Shown here in pieces: positions 30,704-47,404 of a DNA stretch of 64,000 nt. The notes below the pieces were generated by a model that searched no databases, was not told where the DNA came from, and was given only the letters and a program-made list of their open reading frames with translations. The position numbers were made by a program, and so were the translations under genes. Numbering within the stretch: position 1 is the stretch's first letter; each line of letters starts with the position of its first letter. Source of the DNA: Marinactinospora thermotolerans DSM 45154 (lineage in GTDB: Bacteria; Actinomycetota; Actinomycetes; Streptosporangiales; Streptosporangiaceae); assembly GCF_900167435.1 (NCBI RefSeq), contig NZ_FUWS01000017.1:1-64000 (forward strand), in the 5' to 3' direction.

Positions 30704-31078
30704 ATGTCCCTGCAGCGCATCGTCGCGTCCGCTCTGCTCACCGCCGTCGCCGGCGCCTCCTTCGGCCTCCTGGGCGGCGCGCCCGCTTTCGCCGCGGAGG
30801 GCGCCCACACCTCCGACGGTTACTGCGCGAAGGCCGAGGAAGAGCGGAAGAAGGGCTACTGCGAGGAGAAGGACAAGGAGGAGGACAAGGACAAGGGCCA
30901 CCACGGTCACGGCAAGGAAGAGGACAAGGGCAAGGACAAGGGCCACCACGGCTACGACAAGGACAAGGCCGAACACGACAAGGACAAGGGCAAGGGCAAG
31001 GAAGACGACAAGAAGGGCAAGGACAAGGGCCACCACGGTTACGGCCACGACCACGACCACGAGCACAGCCACTCCTGA
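30704..31078 (+). CDS. Secreted Lys/Asp/His-rich repeat peptide
   Basis: A 124-residue protein. The first 30 residues are a classical signal peptide ending GGAPAFA. The mature part has two Cys (residues 41 and 53) followed by a highly charged tail built from DKDKG and KGHHG(H/Y) units and ending in a His-rich run (GHDHDHEHSHS). An exact 20-base direct repeat encodes the KDKGHHG unit three times. No known domain. His/Asp clusters suggest metal binding outside the cell, which is inference. The ribosome site is GAGAGGA. Confidence 0.72.
   Translation: MSLQRIVASALLTAVAGASFGLLGGAPAFAAEGAHTSDGYCAKAEEERKKGYCEEKDKEEDKDKGHHGHGKEEDKGKDKGHHGYDKDKAEHDKDKGKGKEDDKKGKDKGHHGYGHDHDHEHSHS
30887..31038 (+). 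repeat. Three exact 20-base direct repeats
   Basis: The same 20 bases, starting AAGGACAAGGGCC, occur at 30887-30906, 30932-30951 and 31019-31038. They encode KDKGHHG each time in the same frame. Such repeats can expand or contract by slippage. Confidence 0.85.
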
Positions 31079-31250: not shown

Positions 31251-31281
31251 GCCGTCTGCGGTCCGCCGGACCGCAGACGGC
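31251..31281. terminator. Second tandem hairpin, 14-bp perfect stem
   Basis: GCCGTCTGCGGTCC (31251-31264) pairs with GGACCGCAGACGGC (31268-31281) across a GCC loop. Its last base is also the last base of the SRPBCC stop codon. Confidence 0.75.
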
Positions 31282-31715
31282 TAGTCGCCCTCGACGAGGC
31301 GCTTGAGACGCGGAAGGGTCCGTTCGATCCCGCGCGCGTTGCGCGCCGGAGCGCCGATCAGCTGGTAGACGAAGGCGCCGGCGTAGGAGTAGTCGAAGGT
31401 CTCGGTCACCAGCGTGCCGCCCTCCTCCAGCGGCTCCAGCCGCCAACGCCAACGGTGCGGTCCCGCGTGCCGCCAGGCGATGAGCCGCCCCTCCTCGAAC
31501 TCCACCACGCGGTTGGTCATGCGGTAGGGGAGCCCGAGCCGCATCTCCATCCCGAACGTGTCGTCGAGGGCGAGCCGTTGCGGGCCGTGCACCACGCCCT
31601 GCACACTGCCCGAACCGTCGAAACGGGGGTGCTGTCGGGGGTCGGCGAGGAGGTCGAAGATCTTCTCCGCCGGGGCATCGACCACGATGCTCCGCGAAAC
31701 CTGGTGTCTGGCCAT
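31281..31715 (-). CDS. SRPBCC-fold (START/polyketide cyclase-like) protein
   Basis: A 144-residue protein with the typical opening SRSIVVDAPAEKIFDLLADPRQHPRFDGSGSVQG and internal strands RWRWRLEPLEEGGTLVTETFDYS. These small helix-grip proteins bind hydrophobic ligands. No ligand or partner is evident. The start at ATG 31715 has GGAGAA upstream. Confidence 0.85.
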   Translation of the reverse strand: MARHQVSRSIVVDAPAEKIFDLLADPRQHPRFDGSGSVQGVVHGPQRLALDDTFGMEMRLGLPYRMTNRVVEFEEGRLIAWRHAGPHRWRWRLEPLEEGGTLVTETFDYSYAGAFVYQLIGAPARNARGIERTLPRLKRLVEGD

Positions 31716-31811
31716 GTCTGCACGTTCTCCGGTCGGTGCGTCCGGGACCGCGGGCCGGGCCCGGCTCGTCGCCACTCTATCGACGGCGATCCCGAGCGCC
31801 CCCACGCCCCG

Positions 31812-32738
31812 TCACTCCCGGGGACCGTACCGTTCGAGTCCGGCGAGCCCTCCTCCCGCCGCCGGAAGGTGCACCACCCAGAACGCCCCCTTCGCGAGTT
31901 CGGGATCGGCGGGCGGGGTGGTACCGGCCGTCGCCTCGGCCACCAGGTCGGGAACCAGCTCGCCGTGCGTGCAGACCAGCACGGGGGTGCGCCGCGCGAG
32001 GAGCGCCGCGAAGGCGGCGCGGGCCGCGGCGCGGTCGAACGGGTCGCGGGCATCGCCCGTCCCCACCGTGAACGCCGGCTCGCCCCGGACCGTCGCGGCG
32101 GTACGGGCCTGGTAGGGCCGGACCGTCTCGACGCAGCGCGACGCGGTCGAGGTGACGACGGGCGGCGCGCCGAAGGTCTCCAGCACCTCGGCCAGCCTCC
32201 GCGCGTCGTCCCGGCCGGTGTCGTCCAGGGGACGCCTGAGGTCGTCGCCGTCCCAGGCGCGCTTGTCGCCGGCCGAGGCGTGTCGGAGCAGGATGACGGG
32301 GACGGTCGCGCTGGGCCGGGCCGCGAGGTCGGCGAGGACCTCCCGCTCCGCCGCCGTCACCCGGTCGCGGGCCGCGGTCAACGGCGTCCAGACGGCCTCG
32401 CCGCCGCGCCCGACGACGGTGGGGCGGGCGGGCGGCGCCGCAGCCGACCACCACCTGACCGGAGCGGACCGCCCCAGCGAGACGGCGGGGGACAGCCTCG
32501 GCCCCAGGACCGGCCGGACCCCGGCCTGCTCGGCGAGCACCCGCGCCACGGCGGTGAGCGGGTGCTCGTGCCGGCCGGACGCGCCGCGCGGCAGCGCCCA
32601 TCCGCCGCGACCGGGACGGCGCACGAGCGCCACCTCGCGTTCGGCCGCGCCCGGACGCCACAGAACCGCGCCGACCTCGCGCGCGGGCGACGGGCGCGAA
32701 GCCGTCCCCGCCACGGCGGACCCGCGCGGATCACCCAT
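31812..32738 (-). CDS. MutT1-like Nudix + histidine phosphatase, Nudix box degenerate
   Basis: A 308-residue two-domain protein. Residues 18-140 form a Nudix domain, but its box reads [23 protein letters not shown], with REUxEE changed to RVLAEQ, so Mg-binding acids are missing. Residues 145-305 form a histidine phosphatase domain with intact [20 protein letters not shown] and CTHGELV. Mycobacterial MutT1 has the same architecture and the same ppk neighbour. The start codon lies inside the end of ppk (8-base overlap). The phosphatase half may be the active part. Confidence 0.85.
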
Positions 32739-34818
32739 CGACGACCCGGAGATGGCGGTCGCGGCGCAACGTGTTCTGAAGGTCCAGCAGGGGCACCCCC
32801 GAGGCGCCGAGGGTGTGCCGGGTCCAGCTTCCGTCGGGGTTCATGTGCCACGTCGAGGTGGTGTCGGCCATCGCGAGATCCATCATCCCGACCAGCCGTG
32901 TCCGCTGCCCGGAGTCGATGACCCGGACCAGGGCCTCGACCCGGCGGTCGAGGTTGCGCGGCATCAGGTCGGCACTGCCGATCCACACCTCCGGGTCCCC
33001 GCCGTTCTCGAAGAGGAAGACACGGGAGTGCTCCAGGAAGCGGCCGAGGACACTGCGGACCCGCACGGTCTCGGACAGGCCGGGCACGCCCGGACGCAGC
33101 ACGCAGCTTCCCCTCACCCACAGGTCGATGGGGACGCCCACGCGCGACGCCTCGTACAGCACGTCGATGAGCTCCTCGTCGACCAGGGAGTTGACCTTGA
33201 TGCGGATGCGCGCGGGCTCGCCCTTGATCTGGTTGGCCATCTCGTGCCGGATCCGCCGGGTCAGGCTCTCACGCAGCGCGTCGGGGGCGACGAGCAGCCG
33301 CCGGTAGTGCTTCTTGCGGGAGAAGCCCGTGAGGTGGTTGAACAGGTCGCTCAGGTCCTCGCCGAGCTTGGGGTCGGCGCTGAACAGGCCGAAGTCCTCG
33401 TAGGTGCGAGCGGTACGCGGGTTGTAGTTTCCGGTCCCCACATGACAGTAGCGGCGTAGCACGCCGTCGTTGTCCTGGCGGACGACCAGGGCGAGCTTGC
33501 AGTGGGTCTTCAGCCCCACCACCCCGTAGACGACGTGACAGCCGGCGTCCTCCAGCTTGCGCGCCCACTCGATGTTGTTGCGCTCGTCGAAGCGCGCCCG
33601 GATCTCGACGAGCGCGACGACCTCTTTCCCCGCCCGAGCCGCCTCGATCAGCGCCTCGACGATCGGGGAGTCCCCGCTCGTGCGGTACAGCGTCTGCTTG
33701 ATGGCGAGGACGTCGGGATCGGCGGCGGCCAGCGCGAGGAAGCGTTCGGTGGTCGTCGCGAACGACTCGTAGGGGTGGTGGACGAGGAGGTCGCGTTCGC
33801 GGATCGCGGCGAAGAAGTCCTCCTGGGCCAGTGCCCGCGGCTCGGCCGGGACCATCGGCGGGTAGGACAGCTCGGGCCGGTCGAGGTCGGCGATCTGGTG
33901 GAGGCCGGCCAGGTTCAACGGCCCCGGCACGCAGTAGACCTCCTCCTCTTCGGCGCCCAGCTCCTCGCGCAGGATCTCCAGCACCGAATCGGAGATCGTC
34001 TCCTCGACCTCCAGCCGGACCAGGGGGCCGAACCTGCGGCGCAGCAGCTCGTTCTCCAACGACTGCACCAGGTCGTCGGTCTCGTCCTCGTCGACCTCCA
34101 GGTCGGCGTTGCGGGTGACCCGGAAGGCGTGGTGCTCCAGCACCTCCATGCCCTCGAACAGTTGGGGCAGGTGCGCGGCGATCACGTCCTCGACGGGGAC
34201 GAACCGCTCGGAGCAGGCTTCGAGGAACCGGGGGAGCACCGAGGGGACCTTGATCCGGGCGAAGGCGCGGCGGCCCGTGTGCGGGTCGCGGACGGTCACC
34301 GCGAGGTTGAGCGACCGCCCGGAGATGTAGGGGAACGGGTGGGCCGGATCGACGGTGAAGGGGGTGAGGACCGGATAGATCGAGTCCCGGAAGAAACGGT
34401 GCATGCGGCGCCGCTCGTGCTCCTCCAGCTCCTCCCAGCGCACGATGGCGATCCCCGACTTGGCCAGGGCCGGGGCCACGGAGCCGCGGAAGCAGTCGGC
34501 CTGGCGCACCACCAGCTCGTGGGTGACCTCGGCGATGCGCTCCAGGAGGGCCTGGGGAGGGTGGCCGCTGGGCGAGACGACCGCGACACCGGTGGCCATG
34601 CGCCGTTTCAGCCCGGCGACGCGCACCATGAAGAACTCGTCGAGGTTACTGGAGAAGATCGCGAGGAAGCGGACACGTTCGAGCAACGGGATGTCGGTGT
34701 CCTCGGCGAGTTCGAGGACACGCTGGTTGAAGCGGAGCCAGCCCTCCTCCCGATCCAGGAAGCGATCAGCGGGGAGGTTCTCTCCGCCCCGGGCCATGGG
34801 AACCGGTTCCACACTCAC
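32731..34818 (-). CDS. ppk: Polyphosphate kinase
   Basis: A 695-residue PPK1, which builds polyphosphate from ATP. The N domain opens with [21 protein letters not shown] and [13 protein letters not shown]. The autophosphorylated His is in [20 protein letters not shown] (His459 by codon position), and the second conserved His is in [22 protein letters not shown] and the PLD-like C-terminal domains follow. GTG 34818 has a GGGAG upstream; ATG at residue 8 is an alternative. It is co-transcribed with the Nudix/phosphatase gene. Confidence 0.95.
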
Positions 34819-34985: not shown

Positions 34986-35912
34986 CTACACCGACCCCGT
35001 CCAGCCGAGGAACGGGAGCAGTGCGACGGCGTTGACACCGGTGTGCAGCAGGAAGTTCAACCACAGGTTGTGGTAGCGCGACCACAGGTAGCCGTACATC
35101 AGCCCGGCGGCGCCCTGCACCGAGACCACCATCGCGACGAGGACCAGCGGGTTGGTGTCGACGCCGAGCCCGATGGCGCTGGAGACCGCGTAGATCAACG
35201 ACGTGAGCACGATCCCCGGCCAGCGCCCGTACAGCAGCGCCAGCCGGGACTGCAGCATCACCCGGTAGAACGCCTCTTCCAGCAGCGACACCGTCGCGAA
35301 GGTGAGCAGCACCGACAGCAACGGCTGGTAGTCGTCGGGGAGCCGGTCGTAGGTCGGCACGGGCGCGGTCCAGGGCGGGAAGACCGCGAAGTAGAGGTAG
35401 GCGGCGACCGCGAACAGCCCACCCCAGCGCCACCCCTGCGGCACCCACAGCGCGAGCCGGGGCAGGTCCGGCCCCGTCGCCCTGCGCAGCACCCCCGATG
35501 ACCCGACCAGCATCACCGGAACGAACAGCAGGAAGAAGACCTTGGCCGTGTGATAGGAGAGGTCGACGAGGGAGGGGCTGATCAGCCCGAACACGATCTG
35601 GAGCACCCGCTCGCCCACGGCGAAACCGAGGATGCAGGCGAACAGCACCATCACCTCGCGCCCCAGCGAGTGCCCTTTGAGCGCGGTGCGCAGCCGTTCC
35701 TCGAAGTCGTCGGCGGGAGTCCGCCAGGGGAAGAGCCGCACGCACACCATCCCGGCGACGACCGGAATCCACAGGGACCACAGCTCCCCCCGGGCGTACT
35801 CCTCGCCCGGGCGGATCCGGGTGTTACCCGTGGCGTAGAGCAGGACGGCCGAGGCGACGTAGACCGCGGCGCCCGCGACGAGCACCCGGCGTTGGGCGGC
35901 GATCGAGAGCAT
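34986..35912 (-). CDS. CPBP-family membrane protein, copy 1 (motif-2 His missing)
   Basis: A 308-residue protein with about eight membrane segments of the CPBP (Abi/CAAX prenyl protease-like) family. Motif 1 EExxxR is present (LLEEAFYRVMLQSRL) and motif 3 HxxxN is present (LLHTGVNAV). At the motif 2 position FxxxH it reads IYAVSS, without the His. A GYLWSRYHNLWLN stretch links it to its two neighbours. It is the third of three tandem paralogs on this strand, ending just upstream of ppk. Confidence 0.88.
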   Translation of the reverse strand: MLSIAAQRRVLVAGAAVYVASAVLLYATGNTRIRPGEEYARGELWSLWIPVVAGMVCVRLFPWRTPADDFEERLRTALKGHSLGREVMVLFACILGFAVGERVLQIVFGLISPSLVDLSYHTAKVFFLLFVPVMLVGSSGVLRRATGPDLPRLALWVPQGWRWGGLFAVAAYLYFAVFPPWTAPVPTYDRLPDDYQPLLSVLLTFATVSLLEEAFYRVMLQSRLALLYGRWPGIVLTSLIYAVSSAIGLGVDTNPLVLVAMVVSVQGAAGLMYGYLWSRYHNLWLNFLLHTGVNAVALLPFLGWTGSV

Positions 35913-35922
35913 CCGCGCCCCC

Positions 35923-36852
35923 TCACTCCAGGATCGACACGGCGGGACCCGTGATCAGGGTGATCACACCGGCCCGTAGGAGGATGTTGAGCCAGATGTT
36001 GCGGTAGCGCGACCACAGGTAGCCGTACATCAGCGAGGACACCCCGAAGGTGGCCAGCGACAGCAGGAGGTTGCTCGCGCCGAGGGTCCAGGGGTCCCCG
36101 CGCGCGACGTCCTCGTAACCGCCCATCAGCGCGTAGACCAGTCCGAACACGGCCGCGGCGAGGACGATCCCACCGTGCCGTCCGAACAGGCATTCCAGCC
36201 GGCTCTGCAACATGCCCCGGTAGAAGATCTCCTCCGGGAGGGCGACCGCGAACAGGATGCCGAACAGGGTGATCAGCCACTCCAGGGAGAACGGGAGGAA
36301 ACCGTCCCACTGGCCGGCCAGGATGAGGGCGAGGACACCGGCCACGGCGACGGCGCCGCTCCAGCGCCACGGCTCGTCGATCCGCATCGCGATGCCCGCC
36401 ATGGTGTCGCCCTGCTCGGACCTGATCATGCCGGCGCGGTCCACCAGCAGCACCGGTAAGAGGAGCAGGAAGATGAAGCGCACCGCGGGGGCGGCCAGCC
36501 AGGGAAAGCCCTCGCTCACCAGACCGAACACGTAGGACATGATGGCCAGCCCCAGGAGGAAGCCCGCCAGGCACAGGCCGAGGAGCGCGGTCTCCCGGAC
36601 GATGGGATGGGGCTTGAGGGTGTCCTGGACACGCCGGTCCAGCGCCTGGTGACGCCGCGATGGGGTGAGCATGCGCAGCAGGAGAATGCCCGCGCCCATC
36701 GGAATCCAGGTCACCCAGAACGGGGATGGCCCCTCCTCGATGAGGGATCCCTCGACCGCGGTGATCTCCATGGTGGCCGTCGCGACCAAGGCGACGGCGA
36801 ACAGGGCGATTCCCGCCCACAACACCGCCCGTCGCGCCATGTCCACCGGCAT
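35923..36852 (-). CDS. CPBP-family membrane protein, copy 2 (both motif His missing)
   Basis: A 309-residue paralog of copy 1 starting ten bases upstream of it, so co-transcription is likely. Motif 1 is kept (LPEEIFYRGMLQSRL). Motif 2 reads VFGLVYAL, Tyr in place of His. Motif 3 reads LLRAGVITL, with both His and Asn lost. The GYLWSRYRNIWLN stretch is conserved. Catalytic loss is likely, and a structural or regulatory role is possible. Confidence 0.87.
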   Translation of the reverse strand: MPVDMARRAVLWAGIALFAVALVATATMEITAVEGSLIEEGPSPFWVTWIPMGAGILLLRMLTPSRRHQALDRRVQDTLKPHPIVRETALLGLCLAGFLLGLAIMSYVFGLVSEGFPWLAAPAVRFIFLLLLPVLLVDRAGMIRSEQGDTMAGIAMRIDEPWRWSGAVAVAGVLALILAGQWDGFLPFSLEWLITLFGILFAVALPEEIFYRGMLQSRLECLFGRHGGIVLAAAVFGLVYALMGGYEDVARGDPWTLGASNLLLSLATFGVSSLMYGYLWSRYRNIWLNILLRAGVITLITGPAVSILE

Positions 36853-37018
36853 CCTCCCAGTTCAGGGTCCCAGTTTGCCCCGATCGGAACATTCAGTAGG
36901 AGAATGAATGTGGAATGTCGCGATTTCTTTTCCGGTCCATCGGAAATGGGCGGCACTGGGCATGGGCCCTCTGCCCTGGACGGCCGTCCACAACCACGGC
37001 GGGACGCCCCGCCGCAGG

Positions 37019-37960
37019 TCAGGCGGCCCCCAGCAGGAACGGGACCAGGCCGAGCGCGTTCGTACCGCCGTGCAGCAGGATCAGCAGCCACAGGTTGCGG
37101 TAACGGCTCCACAGGTAGCCGAAAAGCAGGCCCGCCGTCCCCTGGACGGTCACCACGACGGCGAGGTCGAGGCCCAGGTGGCCGATGGCGCCATGGCTGA
37201 CGACGTGCATCGACGCGAACACCAGCGCGGACAGCACGATCCCGGCCCACCGCCCGAACAGGACCTCCAGCCGGCTCTGCAACCACAGCCGGTAGAAGAA
37301 CTCCTCCAGCACGCTCGCGGTGAGGAAGGTGACCGTCATGACCACGACCGTGACCGCGTAGGGCGGCAGCTGTTCGGCGGTGGGCGGAGCGGGCGCCCAC
37401 GGGGAGAAGACGGTCGCCCACAGGTAGACCACCACCGCGACCAGACCGCCCCAGCGCCACCCCCGTCCCGGACGCGCGCCCAGGGCTGTCGGCCCGGGGG
37501 CGAGACGACGGTCGGGCCGCCACAGGCGCATCAGGACGAGCGGCACGACCAGCAGGAACACGACCTTGGTCAACGGATAGACCAGTGACGCCTCCTCGTC
37601 GCCGAGCACCAGGCCGGCCGACGCCTGCGCCGCCACGAACAGCGCCGAACAGGCCAGCAGGCCGAGCGTCTCGCGGCCGACCGGACGGCCGTGCAGACCG
37701 AGGCGGAGGGCGGGATCGAGGTCGGGGACCCGCGGCGGCACCGACCGGACCAGCAGCAGTCCGACGGCGACCGGTCCGAGCAGGGTCCACAGTGGTTGCG
37801 CGCCGTACTCATCGGCGGAACGTTCCGCCTCGGTGTGTCCGGTCAGCACGAGGGCGAGCAGCGCGGCGGCGAAGACCGCGACGCCACCGGCCGGCCATAT
37901 CCGGCCGGCACGGGCGGGACCGGTGCGCGCGTGCCGCGCCGCCTCCGGGGAATCGGCCAT
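37019..37960 (-). CDS. CPBP-family intramembrane metalloprotease, copy 3 (motifs intact)
   Basis: A 313-residue member with all three CPBP motifs: EEFFYR in SVLEEFFYRLWLQSRL, FxxxH in LVFASMHVV and HxxxN in LLHGGTNAL. Members of this family include CAAX proteases and bacteriocin self-immunity proteins. ATG 37960 is preceded by AAGGGG. Residues about 20-40 form the first membrane segment, and a soluble loop precedes the R-rich GWRWGG stretch shared with copy 1. The substrate is unknown. Confidence 0.88.
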   Translation of the reverse strand: MADSPEAARHARTGPARAGRIWPAGGVAVFAAALLALVLTGHTEAERSADEYGAQPLWTLLGPVAVGLLLVRSVPPRVPDLDPALRLGLHGRPVGRETLGLLACSALFVAAQASAGLVLGDEEASLVYPLTKVVFLLVVPLVLMRLWRPDRRLAPGPTALGARPGRGWRWGGLVAVVVYLWATVFSPWAPAPPTAEQLPPYAVTVVVMTVTFLTASVLEEFFYRLWLQSRLEVLFGRWAGIVLSALVFASMHVVSHGAIGHLGLDLAVVVTVQGTAGLLFGYLWSRYRNLWLLILLHGGTNALGLVPFLLGAA

Positions 37961-38516: not shown

Positions 38517-40193
38517 CTACGTGGTGGTGTCCCACCCCGCCGTGTCGGTCCGCCACCCGTCCGGCAGGGCGACCCCGCCGGGCCCGCCCCGCGTCAACGC
38601 CTCCCCCAGTCCCCTGGGACAGGGCCCCTTGGCGGCACGGACGCCGTCGGTGAAGGCCACCTGGGCGCCCGTGAACGCGGCCCCGGCGAAGGAGACCCCC
38701 TCGCTCGTGAAGTCGGCGTCGGTGAAGGACACCCGGTCCCCTCCGAACCCGGCGCGTTCGAACGACACCCCCTCCCCCGCGAACCTGACGCCGCCGAATG
38801 ACACCCAGTCGCCCGTGAACACGGCGCCCTCGAAGGCGGCCCGTCCGCCATCGAACGCGGCGCTGCCGAAGGACACCCAGGTACCGACGAACTCGGTGCC
38901 GGTGAAGGAGACCACGGCCCCGCGAAACCCGGTCCCGTTGAAGGACACCTGGTCACCCGCGAACACGGCACCGTCGAAGGACGTCCGGTCGCCGGCGAAC
39001 ACGGCGCCGTCGAACGACATCCGGTTCCCCGTGAACCTGAGGTCGTCGAAGGACACCAGCGCCCCGGAGAACGCGGCCCCGTTGAAGGAGACCCGGTTCC
39101 CGGCGAAACCGGCGCTGGTGAAGGTCACCTCGTCGCCGACGAACTCGGCCCCGGCGAAGGAGACCCGGTCGCCCGCGAACTCGGCGCCGTCGAAGGAGAC
39201 CCGGCCGGCGAAGACGGCGCGGACGAAGGAGACCTGTCCTCCGGTGAAGCGGGCGCCGTGGAAGCCGCCGCCGTCGAAGCGCACGCCGGTGAAGTCATAG
39301 TTCCTGCCGCGCCAGCGGGTGTCGGCGCGCAGGTGGTCGCCGATGACGCGGACGATGGTGTAACGGACCTCGCGCAGGGCGGCGAACTCCAGTCCGGCCG
39401 CGCGGTGTTCGCGGACCTGGTCGGGGTCGGCGTCGGCGGGGAGGGGACCGGGGGCCGGGGCGTAGGGCATGCGCAGGTAGGCGCAGAGCACGTCGACGAC
39501 CATCTGCACCAGTTCGTCGCGGCCCTGGGGGGCGTCGTCGGCGAGGTGGGCCAGGGCGTGCACGCCGGCGAGCTTGACGGCGGGCTCGGGGTCGCCCAAC
39601 TGGGCGGAGGCGGTGGTGAAGCGCTCGGTGAACAACCGGGTGTCCTCGCGCACCACCGCGAGCTCGGCGCGGGCGTCCTCGGCCTCGGTGGTGCGCTGAC
39701 GCCGGTAGTTGATGACCAGCAGCGCCACCCCGCCCAGCCCGGCCACGATCGCGAAGGCTCGGGTGGCGATGGAGTCCAGCGCCTTGGGCGTCAGACTGGC
39801 CGGCGGATCCCACGCCGGGGTCCCCAGCACCCACCAGGCCCCCACCACCAACGCGGCCACCACCCCCACGGCGACCGCCCACGCCCCCAGGATCAGCCGG
39901 CCCAGCCACACCGGTCCGTCGCGTTCGCCGCGCAGCCGCGCCAGCCCGGCCGAGGCCGCTATCAGGCAGACGATCACCCCCACGGCGCGGAGCACCTGGG
40001 CGGTGGGAGGGGCCAACGACTCCCACGCCGCGACCGCGACCGGCCAGGCCAGGACGGCCGCGCCCGTGATCGGCACGCCCACCGCCGACACCGACAGGAG
40101 GAAGGTCCGGCGCCCCGCGCGCGGGAACACGGTTGTGAGGCGAGCACGTGGACGTTCGTGTTCGGGGGATCCGGGGGTCTGCTCCGCGCTCAT
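38517..40193 (-). CDS. Membrane-anchored pentapeptide-type repeat protein
   Basis: A 558-residue protein. N-terminal half: four membrane segments (about residues 29-55, 65-90, 98-125 and 145-165), then a cytoplasmic helical region to about residue 290. The C-terminal half has about 17 units of a 12-residue repeat with F spaced alternately 5 and 7 (GDRVSFAGAEFV, GNRVSFNGAAFS and so on), as in the Pentapeptide_3 group. Such repeats fold as right-handed beta helices. The role is unknown. ATG 40193 has no strong ribosome site, and in-frame GTGs exist. Confidence 0.85.
   Translation of the reverse strand: MSAEQTPGSPEHERPRARLTTVFPRAGRRTFLLSVSAVGVPITGAAVLAWPVAVAAWESLAPPTAQVLRAVGVIVCLIAASAGLARLRGERDGPVWLGRLILGAWAVAVGVVAALVVGAWWVLGTPAWDPPASLTPKALDSIATRAFAIVAGLGGVALLVINYRRQRTTEAEDARAELAVVREDTRLFTERFTTASAQLGDPEPAVKLAGVHALAHLADDAPQGRDELVQMVVDVLCAYLRMPYAPAPGPLPADADPDQVREHRAAGLEFAALREVRYTIVRVIGDHLRADTRWRGRNYDFTGVRFDGGGFHGARFTGGQVSFVRAVFAGRVSFDGAEFAGDRVSFAGAEFVGDEVTFTSAGFAGNRVSFNGAAFSGALVSFDDLRFTGNRMSFDGAVFAGDRTSFDGAVFAGDQVSFNGTGFRGAVVSFTGTEFVGTWVSFGSAAFDGGRAAFEGAVFTGDWVSFGGVRFAGEGVSFERAGFGGDRVSFTDADFTSEGVSFAGAAFTGAQVAFTDGVRAAKGPCPRGLGEALTRGGPGGVALPDGWRTDTAGWDTTT
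38650..39285 (-). repeat. Tandem 36-base coding repeats
   Basis: The repeat part of the pentapeptide-type protein shows at DNA level as degenerate 36-base units carrying the recurring phrase GTCTCCTTC (antisense gaaggagac). They are diverged, so they are ancient rather than a recent expansion. Unit edges are approximate. Confidence 0.7.
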
Positions 40194-40837
40194 GAACGCA
40201 CCGTAGCCAGGATCGCCCCTCGCCTCGAAGGCGGTATCCGCAACCGGCCGGACACGCCCCATGGCGTTGCGACGGACGACCGGGGCGTTCCACGCGTTCC
40301 CCCTCGCCGCGCCGGCCGTCCGGGGTGACGGCCATCGCCGTCCCGCCAGGTGCCGGGGGCGGTGTGGCGGGCGGGGCGGCGCGACGGGTTTTCCCGTCCT
40401 CCGTTCCGGCCTGCTCCGGCGCGTCCTGGATCGTCCGTGACGGCGTGGAGGTGGTCGGGCTCGTCGCGGAAGGAGCGGGGACGAGCGTGTCCGGTCCCGA
40501 CACGCCGCAGACGGTGGGGCGGGGCGTCACGGCAGGGCGCGTTTCTCCCCGAGGTGCCAGGAACAGGTCCGACGCGGATGCGCCGCCTCCGTGGCCGTTC
40601 CCTGAGAGGAGCGCCGGTCGCGCCGTTTCCTCGGGTCTTCACGGTGGCCGGGTACGGCCAGGCCGCCTTCTCCGGCGCCGCGGAGTGGCCGACGGCCCCG
40701 ATCACCCTCTGGTGAAATGTCGCTTTTCTAGAGAAAAGGAGTGTTTGGTCGTTTTTTCGGCGAAGGTGATGAGAAGCCGCGGGCCGAAGGGCGGGTGAAG
40801 CCGTCGAAGGACCTCACCACACTCCGAAGGGACGGCC
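40194..40837. other. 644-base gap with an AT-rich palindrome
   Basis: No frame here gives a recognisable protein. CTTTTCTAGAGAAAAG (40723-40738) is a perfect inverted repeat with a 2-base centre, followed by TTGGTCGTTTTTTCGG. The palindrome could be an operator or a T-tract terminator for an unrecognised short transcript. Confidence 0.4.
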
Positions 40838-43131: not shown

Positions 43132-43534
43132 CGTGGTCCCGTCCACCGAGCAGGGGGCGATCGCACAGCATGGCCCGAACACCAGCGGTCCGACCGTCCC
43201 ACGGCCCGCCCGGCGCGAGCGCCGCTCCCCTCCTCGCGCCCCGGACTCCGGGAGGACGGAGGGCCCGCCCGTGAGGGCCCGCCCGCTCCGGCCCCCGCCG
43301 GCGCCCTCCCCGCCACGCGACCCCGCCCGCCCAGACGCCTCCCCGCCCGCTCGACAGGGCCGGACCGTGGACGCGGCGGGAGCGGCGGGGCGCCCGGGAA
43401 CCGGCGTCCGCGGCCCTTCCCAGGCCACACGACGCCCGCGCGCGGCGGTTCCGCGTCCGGACAGGGCCGCGTCCACCGCGGGCGTCCCGTTCCTTTCCGG
43501 CACCCCGTCCGACCACCAGTCACGAGAGGAAGCC
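43132..43534. other. 403-base leader between operator and GH3 gene
   Basis: The GH3 frame stays open upstream to 43133, but its translation here is Pro/Arg-rich. The strong GAGAGGA site at the ATG 43535 argues that this is untranslated. I see no further gene. Confidence 0.4.
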
Positions 43535-45814
43535 ATGAGCGAAACCACCGACCTCAGCCTGGAGGAGAGGGCCGCGCTCGGCAGCGGCGCCGACTTCTGG
43601 ACCACGAAGGCCGTCGGCCCCGTCCCGGCGATCTCACTGACCGACGGGCCGCACGGCGTGCGCAAGCAGACCGGCGCGTCGGACCACCTGGGGCTTTCGG
43701 CGAGCATCCCCGCGACGTGCTTCCCGCCCGCGGTCGGGCTCGGCCAGTCCTGGGACCCCGAACTCGTCGAGCGCGTCGGCGCGGCCCTGGGCGACGAAAG
43801 CCGGGCCGCCGGGGTGAACGTGCTGCTCGGCCCCGGTGTGAACATCAAGCGCGACCCGCGCTGTGGCCGCAACTTCGAGTACTACTCGGAGGACCCGCTC
43901 GTCTCCGGCGTTCTCGGCGCGGCCTGGGTGAAGGGACTGCAGAGCCGCGGCGTGGGCGCCTCGGTGAAGCACTTCGCGGCCAACAACGCCGAGCATGACC
44001 GGATGCGTTCGAGTTCCGACATCGACCCCCGCACGCTGCGCGAGATCTACCTGCGCGCGTTCCAGCGGGTCGTCGAGGAGGCGCGCCCCTGGACGGTGAT
44101 GTGCTCCTACAACCGGATCAACGGGACCTACGCCGGTGAGAACGCGTGGCTGTTGACATCGGTCCTGCGCGACGAGTGGGGTTTCGACGGCGTCGTGGTC
44201 AGCGACTGGGGTGCCGTGCGGGACCGGGTCGCCTCGGTGGCGGCCGGCCTGGATCTTGAGATGCCGGCGACCGGTGGCGTGTCGGACGCGCGCGTGGTGG
44301 CCGCGGTCGCCGCCGGCGAGCTGGACGCGGCGGCCGTCGACCGTTCCGCGCGGCGCGTCGCGCGGCTCGCCGCCCGGGCCGCCGAGGGGGCGCGCGAGGG
44401 GGCGACGTTCGACGTCGACGCCCACCACGCCCTCGCCCGCGAGGCGGCCGGGCGCGGCGTCGTCCTGCTCAAGAACGACGGCGCGCTGCTTCCGCTCGCG
44501 CCCGGCGGCTCGATCGCCGTCATCGGCGAGTTCGCGCAGGCGCCGCGCTACCAGGGCGGCGGCAGTTCGCACGTGAACCCCACCCGCCTGGACGTTCCGC
44601 TCGACGAGGTGCGCCGGCTCGCCGGCGACGGCGACGTCTCCTTCTCCCCCGGTTTCACGACGGACGGGTCCGGCGACGCCGAGGCGTTGCGCGCCGAGGC
44701 GGTGCGGGCCGCGGCCGCCGCGCGGACCGCCGTCGTCTTCCTCGGGCTGGCCGCGCGGCAGGAGTCGGAGGGCTTCGACCGGGAGCACATCGAGCTGCCC
44801 CGGGAGCAGGTCGAACTGCTGGAGGCCGTCGTGCGGGCGCAGCCGCGCACCGTCGTCGTCCTCTCCCACGGGGGCGTGCTGCGGCTCGCCCCGGTCGCCG
44901 AGCTGGCGCCCGCGATCCTCGACGGCGCCCTGCTCGGGCAGGCGGGCGGCGGCGCGATCGCCGACGTGCTGTTCGGTGTCGTCAACCCGTCGGGGCGGTT
45001 GACGGAGACCGTCCCGGTGCGGTTGGAGGACTCCCCCGCCTACCTGTCCTTCCCCGGCGAGCACGGGCACGTGCTGTACGGTGAGCGGATCTTCGTCGGC
45101 TACCGCTGGTACGACGCCCGCGGCCTGGAGGTCACCTTCCCGTTCGGGCACGGCCTGTCCTACACCGAGTTCACCTACTCCGGCCTGGAGCTGGCGCCCT
45201 CCGAGGCGGGGGTGGCCGTGCGGCTCACGGTGTCGAACACGGGGACGCGGGCCGGGCGCGAGGTGGTGCAGGTCTACGCGGGGCTGCCGGCCTCGGAGGT
45301 GGCCCGGGCGCCGCGCTGGCTCGCCGGGTTCGCGGGGGTCACGTTGGACCCCGGCGAGAGCCGCACCGTCGAGCTGCTGCTCCGCCGGGAGGACCTCGCC
45401 TATTGGGATGTGCGGCAGGACCGTTGGGTGGTCGAGGGCGGCGACTACGTGATCTCGGTGGGCGCCTCCAGCCGCGACCTGCGCCTGACGGGGACCGTGG
45501 CCCTCGACGGCGACGGCGTCCGTCCGCCGCTCACCCTGGAGTCGACTCTCGGCGAGGTGCTCGCCGACCCCGTGGCCGGCCCGGTGCTGATGGAGGCCAT
45601 GAGCGGCAGCGCCCTTCCCGGTGTAGCCGGCGATGAGGGGGCCGACCTGGGCATGGACATGCAGCGGATGATGGCGTCGATCCCGATCGACCGGATGGTC
45701 GCCTTCTCCGGCGGCCGGGTGGACCGCGCCCGGCTGGAGCAGCTGCTGGAGCACGCCAACGCGCGGCGCTCGACCGGTGCCCCCGCCGCGACCGGGACCG
45801 GGAAGGACTCCTGA
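43535..45814 (+). CDS. GH3-family beta-glucosidase, cytoplasmic
   Basis: A 759-residue glycoside hydrolase family 3 enzyme. Substrate Asp in LTDGPHGVR, then KHFAANNAEHDR, and nucleophile Asp224 in GVVVSDWGAV. The second alpha/beta sandwich follows (GRGVVLLKNDGALLPL, GGGSSHVNPTRLD, FLGLAARQESEGFDR). The last third has a PA-free fibronectin-III-like domain (EVVQVYAGLPASEVARAPRWLAGFAGVTLDPGES). There is no signal peptide, so it acts on imported glycosides. Start ATG 43535 has GAGAGGA. Confidence 0.93.
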   Translation: MSETTDLSLEERAALGSGADFWTTKAVGPVPAISLTDGPHGVRKQTGASDHLGLSASIPATCFPPAVGLGQSWDPELVERVGAALGDESRAAGVNVLLGPGVNIKRDPRCGRNFEYYSEDPLVSGVLGAAWVKGLQSRGVGASVKHFAANNAEHDRMRSSSDIDPRTLREIYLRAFQRVVEEARPWTVMCSYNRINGTYAGENAWLLTSVLRDEWGFDGVVVSDWGAVRDRVASVAAGLDLEMPATGGVSDARVVAAVAAGELDAAAVDRSARRVARLAARAAEGAREGATFDVDAHHALAREAAGRGVVLLKNDGALLPLAPGGSIAVIGEFAQAPRYQGGGSSHVNPTRLDVPLDEVRRLAGDGDVSFSPGFTTDGSGDAEALRAEAVRAAAAARTAVVFLGLAARQESEGFDREHIELPREQVELLEAVVRAQPRTVVVLSHGGVLRLAPVAELAPAILDGALLGQAGGGAIADVLFGVVNPSGRLTETVPVRLEDSPAYLSFPGEHGHVLYGERIFVGYRWYDARGLEVTFPFGHGLSYTEFTYSGLELAPSEAGVAVRLTVSNTGTRAGREVVQVYAGLPASEVARAPRWLAGFAGVTLDPGESRTVELLLRREDLAYWDVRQDRWVVEGGDYVISVGASSRDLRLTGTVALDGDGVRPPLTLESTLGEVLADPVAGPVLMEAMSGSALPGVAGDEGADLGMDMQRMMASIPIDRMVAFSGGRVDRARLEQLLEHANARRSTGAPAATGTGKDS

Positions 45815-46582: not shown

Positions 46583-47404
46583 TCACCCCTCCAGGACCGC
46601 GTGCAGGAACTCCTTGGTGCGTTCCTCGTGGGGGTCGCCGAAGATCTGTTCCGGCGGCCCCTCCTCGACGATCCGGCCCTGGTCGAACATCAGCACCCGG
46701 TGAGAGACGTCCTTGGCGAAGGCCATCTCGTGGGTCACCGACAGCATCGTGATGTCGGTGGTGCGCGCGATCTCGCGCAGCACGTCCAAGACCCCCGCGA
46801 CCAGCTCGGGGTCCAGGGCCGAGGTCACCTCGTCGAGCAGCAGGATCTGCGGGCGCATCGCCAGCGCCCGGGCGATCGCGACCCGTTGCTGCTGCCCTCC
46901 GGAGAGCTGGGTGGGGTGGGCGTCGATCTTCTGCCGCAGCCCCACCATGTCCAGCAGCTCCTCCGCCCGCTGGTCGGCCTCCTCCCGGGAGATCCCCAGC
47001 GTGTGGACGGGCGCCTCGGTGATGTTGCGGCGCACGCTCATGTTCGGGAACAGGTTGAACTGCTGGAAGACCATCCCGATCTTCTTACGCACCTCACGCT
47101 GGTGCTTCTCGTTGGCCGGGACGAGCCGCCCGTTACGCCGCATGTGGCTGAGCGAATCGCCGTTGACCCAGATGACGCCGCCGTTGACCCGCTCCAACGT
47201 CATCAACAGCCGCAGGATCGTGGTCTTACCCGAACCGCTGGGACCGATCAGGGTGACCCGTTCGCCCGCGTCCACGGTGAAGTCGAGTTCACGCAGGACG
47301 ACGTTGCGGCCGAACCTCTTGACCACCTTGTCGAACCGGATCAGCGGCTCCTCACCGGGGGCGTGACCCGCGGCGCCGGCCGGGAGGTTGTCAGATTGCG
47401 GCAT
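46583..47404 (-). CDS. ehuA: Ectoine/hydroxyectoine ABC transporter ATP-binding protein
   Basis: A 273-residue polar-amino-acid-type ATPase. Walker A GPSGSGKTT, Q-loop VFQQFNLFPNMSV, signature LSGGQQQR, Walker B ILLLDEVTSALD and the switch His in VTHEM. The gene order ehuB-ehuC-ehuD-ehuA directly behind ectABCD identifies it as the Ehu importer. It overlaps ehuD by 14 bases. Confidence 0.92.
   Translation of the reverse strand: MPQSDNLPAGAAGHAPGEEPLIRFDKVVKRFGRNVVLRELDFTVDAGERVTLIGPSGSGKTTILRLLMTLERVNGGVIWVNGDSLSHMRRNGRLVPANEKHQREVRKKIGMVFQQFNLFPNMSVRRNITEAPVHTLGISREEADQRAEELLDMVGLRQKIDAHPTQLSGGQQQRVAIARALAMRPQILLLDEVTSALDPELVAGVLDVLREIARTTDITMLSVTHEMAFAKDVSHRVLMFDQGRIVEEGPPEQIFGDPHEERTKEFLHAVLEG

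Follow-up and report, generated by a model that had tools for sequence, protein, structure and literature searches.

Tandem CPBP genes with catalytic-residue loss in Marinactinospora thermotolerans: two conserved, probably non-proteolytic clades and an intact neighbour

Three CPBP genes in tandem

The first 64,000 nucleotides of contig NZ_FUWS01000017.1 of Marinactinospora thermotolerans DSM 45154 (assembly GCF_900167435.1), the stretch analysed here and called the window, carry three genes for CPBP (Rce1-like) proteins, copies 3, 2 and 1, arranged head-to-tail on the minus strand at 34986-37960. Copies 2 and 1 are read here as ancient, conserved non-proteolytic CPBPs, probably scaffolds or regulators, with copy 3 an ordinary intact member of the family, seen beside them only in this genome; a rough probability of 0.62 is assigned to this reading. 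Copy 3 (37019..37960, 313 amino acids) has the full motif set and is found at the copy 2 locus in this genome only; copy 2 (35923..36852, 309 amino acids) is a conserved CPBP pseudoprotease in which the motif-1 residues are retained; and copy 1 (34986..35912, 308 amino acids), in which the motif-2 His is replaced, is the tandem partner of copy 2. The intergenic gaps measure 166 nucleotides between copies 3 and 2, and 10 nucleotides between copies 2 and 1.

All three proteins score well above the curated cut-off of the PF02517 (CPBP/Rce1-like) profile (22.4 bits), with 60.6 bits for copy 3, 46.2 for copy 2 and 46.5 for copy 1, and all lie far under every listed cut-off of the NCBIfam CPBP equivalogs (myxosortase, MrtJ/MrtS, Rv0804). 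Intact EExxxR, FxxxH and HxxxN motifs are formed in copy 3 by E219, E220 and R224, H252, and H297 and N301; in copy 1 (E212, E213, R217; S245; H290, N294) Ser takes the place of the motif-2 His; and in copy 2 (E207, E208, R212; Y240; R293, I297) both His residues and the Asn are replaced. The motif set of an active protease is therefore present in copy 3 and, for FxxxH/HxxxN, absent from copies 1 and 2. An earlier note, drawn from the letters of this DNA, had described just this gradation, with EExxxR and a GYLWSRY stretch common to all three copies; the residue states proved exact, and the alignment bears out both shared stretches. Pairwise identity among the three copies is just 32-39%, so the duplications are old. 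Degenerate CPBPs as such are common, since a strict EExxxR / [FW]xxxH / HxxxN set is not matched in full by four of the eight further CPBPs encoded in this genome when their translations are read by eye.

Two clades within one bacterial family

A search with copy 2 against 341 genomes of the same family gave matches in 78 (E ≤ 1e-10). Eighty stretches were taken around copy 2 and related matches, and the CPBP open reading frames (ORFs) of at least 50 bits found there, combined with those of the window, made up a set of 96 genes; two more copy 2-like matches (G095:C1:584854 and G106:C1:5984857) lie outside this set. The tree was built from 66 of the 96 genes with the seven motif columns excluded, genus code g34 being represented by 10 of its 40 main-locus rows. 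In this tree the copy 2 genes form one clade (support 100/100) and the copy 1 genes another (97/93), which is its sister (100/98); both branch from among relatives in which all motifs are intact. A grouping of copy 1 with copy 3 was rejected by the approximately unbiased test (p 0.0186, a moderate value). Copy 3 groups with two genes from other loci, L086 and L087, with weak support (82/30).

The copy 2 clade comprises 70 genes in 68 genomes, the window included, spread over 15 genus codes of one family. The other 10 of the 78 genomes comprise one with a copy 3-like gene, one with two copy 1-like genes, one with an intact outgroup gene and seven, outside the fetched set, that gave weak matches only. 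Across 394 genomes sampled from the whole class, copy 2 found matches at E ≤ 1e-12 in 23: 22 from the family of the window, counting its own genome, and one, a weak match, from outside that family. This exceeds chance: copy 1 and copy 2 belong to separate clades, and each clade has a residue pattern of its own in further genomes too.

Catalytic-site residues

Motif 1 does not vary among the copy 2 genes, 70/70 having its two Glu and its Arg. The motif-2 His position holds Tyr in 56 of the 70, Ser in six, His in five and Gln in three; at the motif-3 His position, counted over 69 genes since a broken gene (L077) has no letters there, Arg is found in 61, His in six and Tyr in two, and the motif-3 Asn is absent throughout (0/69). 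The commonest combinations across the motif-2, motif-3 and Asn positions are Tyr-Arg-Phe (39 genes) and Tyr-Arg-Leu (eight). Ranked by conservation among 312 alignment columns of this clade, the two Glu positions come 5th and 6th, motif 2 21st, the Arg 27th, motif 3 39th and the Asn position 140th.

Loss has gone further in the copy 1 clade, where the motif-2 His is absent from all 16 genes (Ser in 12), the second Glu and the Arg are each lost in nine, the motif-3 His is retained in nine, and the motif-3 Asn survives in the window's copy alone, which is the least degraded member of its clade. A full catalytic set occurs in none of the 70 copy 2 or 16 copy 1 genes, and all motif residues are present in 10/10 intact relatives, copy 3 included. 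By parsimony the tree calls for at least four changes at the motif-2 His, six at the motif-3 His and two at the Asn, so that losses, or losses and returns, occurred repeatedly. The graded loss is real, but it belongs to two old clades.

Selection and predicted fold

The median pairwise ratio of nonsynonymous to synonymous rates (dN/dS) in copy 2 is 0.121 over 83 pairs with identity above 70% and 0.05 < dS < 3, the window and L077 being excluded; the compared stretches extend some residues beyond the profile match and may include upstream bases. AlphaFold2 models reach a mean predicted local distance difference test score of 86.0 for copy 2 and 87.8 for copy 1. By VIA-align, the copy 2 model aligns with Rce1 (PDB 4cad; Z 14.4, root-mean-square deviation (rmsd) 3.5, 205 residues aligned) and SpdC (PDB 6u0o; Z 13.4, rmsd 3.8, 204 aligned), the next row standing at Z 5.8, and the copy 1 model with SpdC (Z 14.8, rmsd 4.0, 209 aligned) and Rce1 (Z 14.4, rmsd 2.9, 196 aligned), the row after these being at Z 6.5; Z values of about 13-14 are attainable by unrelated helical models, and the weight lies in the gap to the next row. 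The alignments begin near residue 80, so that the N-terminal part of both copies, predicted to contain three helices, is outside the aligned core, and a search of solved structures by sequence with alignment A1 returned one chance-level match only. Copies 1 and 2 are thus predicted to have an intact Rce1-like membrane fold.

A conserved chromosomal site

In its 68 genomes copy 2 lies nearly always at the same chromosomal site. Neighbourhoods were counted over the main loci of 67 relatives, paralogues elsewhere (L101, L102) being excluded from the 69 rows. At least one of three genes, ppk1, a NUDIX/histidine-phosphatase gene and a polyketide cyclase-like gene, follows downstream on the same strand, within the stretch fetched, in 67/67 loci. 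In the window these conserved neighbours, all on the minus strand, are ppk1 (polyphosphate kinase, 32731..34818), the usual downstream neighbour of copy 2 or of copies 2-1 in relatives, where it falls within 3.5 kb downstream in 59/67 loci; the gene for a NUDIX plus histidine phosphatase protein (31812..32738); and that for a polyketide cyclase/lipid transport (SRPBCC-like) protein (31281..31805). Upstream, the ectoine importer ATPase gene ehuA is found on the same strand in 51/67 loci, just before copy 2 in many relatives, and in L070 and L103 the upstream block, identified by family, consists of ectoine synthesis and import; here ehuA (46583..47404, minus strand) is about 8.6 kb from copy 3. 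Copy 1 directly follows copy 2 in 13/67 relatives (14/68 with the window), and copy 2 stands without an adjacent copy 1 in 54/68 genomes. A small FMN-reductase-like gene (e.g. L070:6129-6935) occurs upstream of copy 2, often directly, in 18/69 rows from several genera.

The role of ppk1 as a functional partner of copy 2 is weakened by eight genomes from several genus codes (loci L063, L072, L073, L078, L113, L124, L136 and L139), in which copy 2 and the polyketide cyclase-like neighbour are retained and ppk1 is missing from the locus; genome-wide, these gave no poly_P_kin match at E ≤ 0.001 and no TIGR03705 match, whereas control genomes G000 and G134 gave a ppk1 match in the same search. One of the set, G105, is just 85% complete. 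Because these eight genomes keep copy 2 without a detectable ppk1, copy 2 appears to be independent of it.

Copy 3 and the conserved block

Conservation of the three-gene block with the same substitutions, which the earlier note had proposed to check, holds for copies 2 and 1 and not for copy 3: a third CPBP gene is found in 0/67 relatives' stretches around copy 2, six of which cover under 5 kb on one side, and an extra ORF in L077 is the end of the broken copy 2 in another frame. Membership of copy 3 in a conserved unit is accordingly rejected, and the suggestion that an intact copy had been retained together with damaged ones is not supported for a unit of three. The nearest relatives of copy 3, L086 and L087 (53% and 50% identical, with up to six candidates scored per genome), lie away from the copy 2 locus, with no ppk1, copy 1 or copy 2 in the fetched stretch. 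In the copy 3 search (E ≤ 1e-25, the same number of candidates scored), no match is listed from g34, the largest of the groups that have copy 2. An obligate role for copy 3 in a complex is unlikely, since the relatives' stretches contain no third CPBP and L086 and L087 lie elsewhere; a complex of copies 1 and 2 is possible. The best reading of the sequence comparisons is that copy 3 would be an ordinary intact CPBP paralogue that joined copies 2-1 in this lineage.

Copy 3 adjoins the interval that separates it from ehuA, which holds pentapeptide-repeat, STAS, TetR and glycosyl hydrolase family 3 genes; the first three had no counterpart among the relatives' fetched stretches at E ≤ 1e-15. The pentapeptide-repeat protein (38517-40262), directly upstream of copy 3, has a hydrophobic N-terminal part.

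Known CPBPs without proteolysis

Scaffold-type and degenerate CPBPs are already known: SpdC/LyrA, LnsB and APH-1. SpdC/LyrA of Staphylococcus aureus, solved as SagB-SpdC (PDB 6u0o), resembles copies 1 and 2 in combining a CPBP fold with missing catalytic residues; it is said to lack key catalytic residues (PMC7387801), is reported to bind WalK (PMC5854430), and its modulation of SagB has been suggested (PMC12214887). Identity over the structural alignment is 10-11%, copies 1 and 2 add about 80 N-terminal residues outside the aligned core, and copy 2, unlike SpdC, retains Glu-Glu-Arg. Because copies 1 and 2 nest among intact CPBPs of the same bacterial family, the likeness to SpdC is more probably functional than a sign of shared recent descent. 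The glutamic CAAX protease Rce1 (MmRce1, PDB 4cad) shares its fold with copies 1 and 2 and its complete motif residues with copy 3, whereas copies 1 and 2 have no equivalent of His173, and copy 2 none of His227 and Asn231 either.

LnsB of S. aureus is likewise described as CPBP-like with divergent catalytic motifs (PMC7387801), and a non-catalytic role has been proposed for it with APH-1 as the model (PMC7387801; PMC6588880); it acts with LnsA in lipoprotein N-acylation, whereas no LnsA-like (NlpC/P60) family is among the neighbours identified here. APH-1, given as a CPBP homologue that retains some polar motif residues without proteolysis of its own (PMC6588880, PMC7387801), differs in being eukaryotic and complexed with an aspartyl protease; the match of the copy 1 model to 5a63_C (APH-1; Z 4.4, rmsd 6.0, 113 aligned) is too weak to carry weight by itself. 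Abx1 of group B Streptococcus, which is reported to work with altered motif residues and to bind the histidine kinase CovS, parallels what is proposed for copy 2 as a CPBP that works without protease residues, but differs in retaining its motif residues (PMC3578759).

Among the CPBP papers listed, none is by its title on the copy 2/copy 1 group, and PMC4603692 touches the topic in its reference list only. What is new is the stereotyped Tyr/Arg replacement with an invariant Glu-Glu-Arg, held across one family at one chromosomal site, next to a partner gene in which loss is more advanced.

Proposed function and alternatives

The reading of copies 2 and 1 as non-proteolytic CPBPs is based on four observations: catalytic residues are lost in a clade-specific way, the fold is predicted to be intact, dN/dS is low and the chromosomal position is conserved. 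In the CPBP enzyme DidK the equivalent of MmRce1 His173 is reported as essential, and changes to the motif-3 pair cost it over half of its activity (PMC10811503); lacking residues that DidK needs, copies 1 and 2 are not expected to cleave peptide bonds. Copy 2 in particular would be unable to hydrolyse peptide bonds, as the equivalents of His173 and of the His/Asn oxyanion pair are replaced. It would nevertheless keep a polar site within the membrane, made of Glu-Glu-Arg with Tyr and Arg, perhaps with Glu and Arg as a buried ion pair, and this site would fix the helices and a surface for partner contact in place. Copy 2 may bind another membrane protein and set its activity, as in the SpdC/LyrA-SagB and Abx1-CovS pairs. 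Copy 1, where present, would probably be an accessory partner, further relaxed. The earlier preference for pseudoproteases over decay is supported by conserved clade-specific substitutions, intact predicted folds and a dN/dS of about 0.1, and the contrary case it named, in which a duplication limited to one strain would go with random substitutions in relatives, does not hold for copies 1 and 2, whose substitutions are specific to their clades and shared by relatives. Non-proteolytic CPBPs in the cited passages of the literature are single Firmicutes proteins and APH-1; should copy 2 prove to bind a membrane partner, the range of scaffold-type CPBPs would reach into the actinobacteria, and copies 2 and 1 with their intact relatives form a natural series for the role of motif 1 once proteolysis is gone.

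Several findings weigh against a scaffold or regulatory role for copies 2 and 1, besides the level of the Z-scores given above. Two long branches are flagged in the tree; the motif-2 His is present in five of the 70 copy 2 genes, one of which has the motif-3 His too; the dN/dS values for copy 1 (0.091, 0.058 and 0.155) come from three pairs and that for intact CPBPs (0.09) from a single pair; and a Foldseek search with the copy 2 model gave no match at E ≤ 0.001, 4cad appearing at E about 1. In one relative (G133, L077:7201-8110) copy 2 is frame-broken, with the frame of copy 1 open, and copy 2 is for that reason apparently dispensable or decaying there. No conserved neighbour is singled out as the partner of copy 2, which persists where ppk1 is missing; ectoine import as the function is weakened, ehuA not being found upstream on the same strand in 16/67 stretches by a test that demanded 60% identity, with some stretches ending at contig ends. 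The retained Glu-Glu-Arg could, moreover, serve other chemistry.

A rival view is that copies 1 and 2 are repurposed enzymes, whose Glu-Glu-Arg-Tyr-Arg site carries out another reaction or binds a ligand or ion, an unlikely explanation with a small but real chance of being right. It draws on the invariance of motif 1 in 70/70 copy 2 genes, on the stereotyped replacements and on the existence of a CPBP with esterase activity, DidK (PMC10811503), but the spread of residues at motif 2 (Tyr/Ser/His/Gln) and motif 3 (Arg/His/Tyr) within the clade is loose for catalysis, and copy 1 drops motif-1 residues in several genera. The more specific proposal that the copy 2 clade is a re-tooled intramembrane site with a new ligand-binding or chemical function, and copy 1 its dedicated partner where the two are paired, is likewise unlikely. 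An obligate complex of all three proteins, with copy 3 catalytic and copies 1 and 2 regulatory, is quite improbable: the genes are in tandem on the same strand, belong to one subfamily and include the 10-nucleotide gap between copies 2 and 1, which are adjacent in 14/68 genomes, and intact CPBPs of other types exist in relatives and could substitute for copy 3, but the 67 relatives' stretches contain no third CPBP, L086 and L087 occur without copy 1 or 2, and no copy 3-like gene from g34 is among the matches listed.

Slow neutral decay, with redundant copies persisting temporarily by chance, would fit the frame-broken copy 2 of one genome, the strong degradation of copy 1 in several genera and the abundance of CPBPs (between 6 and 13 PF02517 matches per genome in 10 relatives); it is contradicted for copy 2 by the dN/dS near 0.1, the same site and residues over 15 genus codes and the good predicted folds, and is very improbable overall. 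Least probable of all is a role in self-immunity to a bacteriocin or toxin, which the earlier note had touched on: some CPBPs are reported to confer self-immunity to bacteriocins (PMC12214887), but the conserved neighbours are ectoine genes, ppk1, the NUDIX/phosphatase gene and the polyketide cyclase-like gene, with no bacteriocin gene among those identified, although no dedicated bacteriocin search was made. The scaffold or regulatory reading of copies 2 and 1 is therefore preferred.

Other features of the window and its relatives

A glycosyl hydrolase family 3 protein is encoded at 43133-45814, between ehuA and the CPBP block, and a small ORF at 30704-31078, with no Pfam match, has a signal-like start and a tail rich in Lys, Glu, Asp and His. 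Another type of CPBP, in which EEVIVVG replaces EExxxR and the Arg is absent, was seen at G000:C33:334089-334367 (L005), with similar genes in L152 and L154, in a motif survey of other CPBPs read through L160, L161-L175 being left out; recurrent in relatives, it may be a second non-standard CPBP that is conserved.

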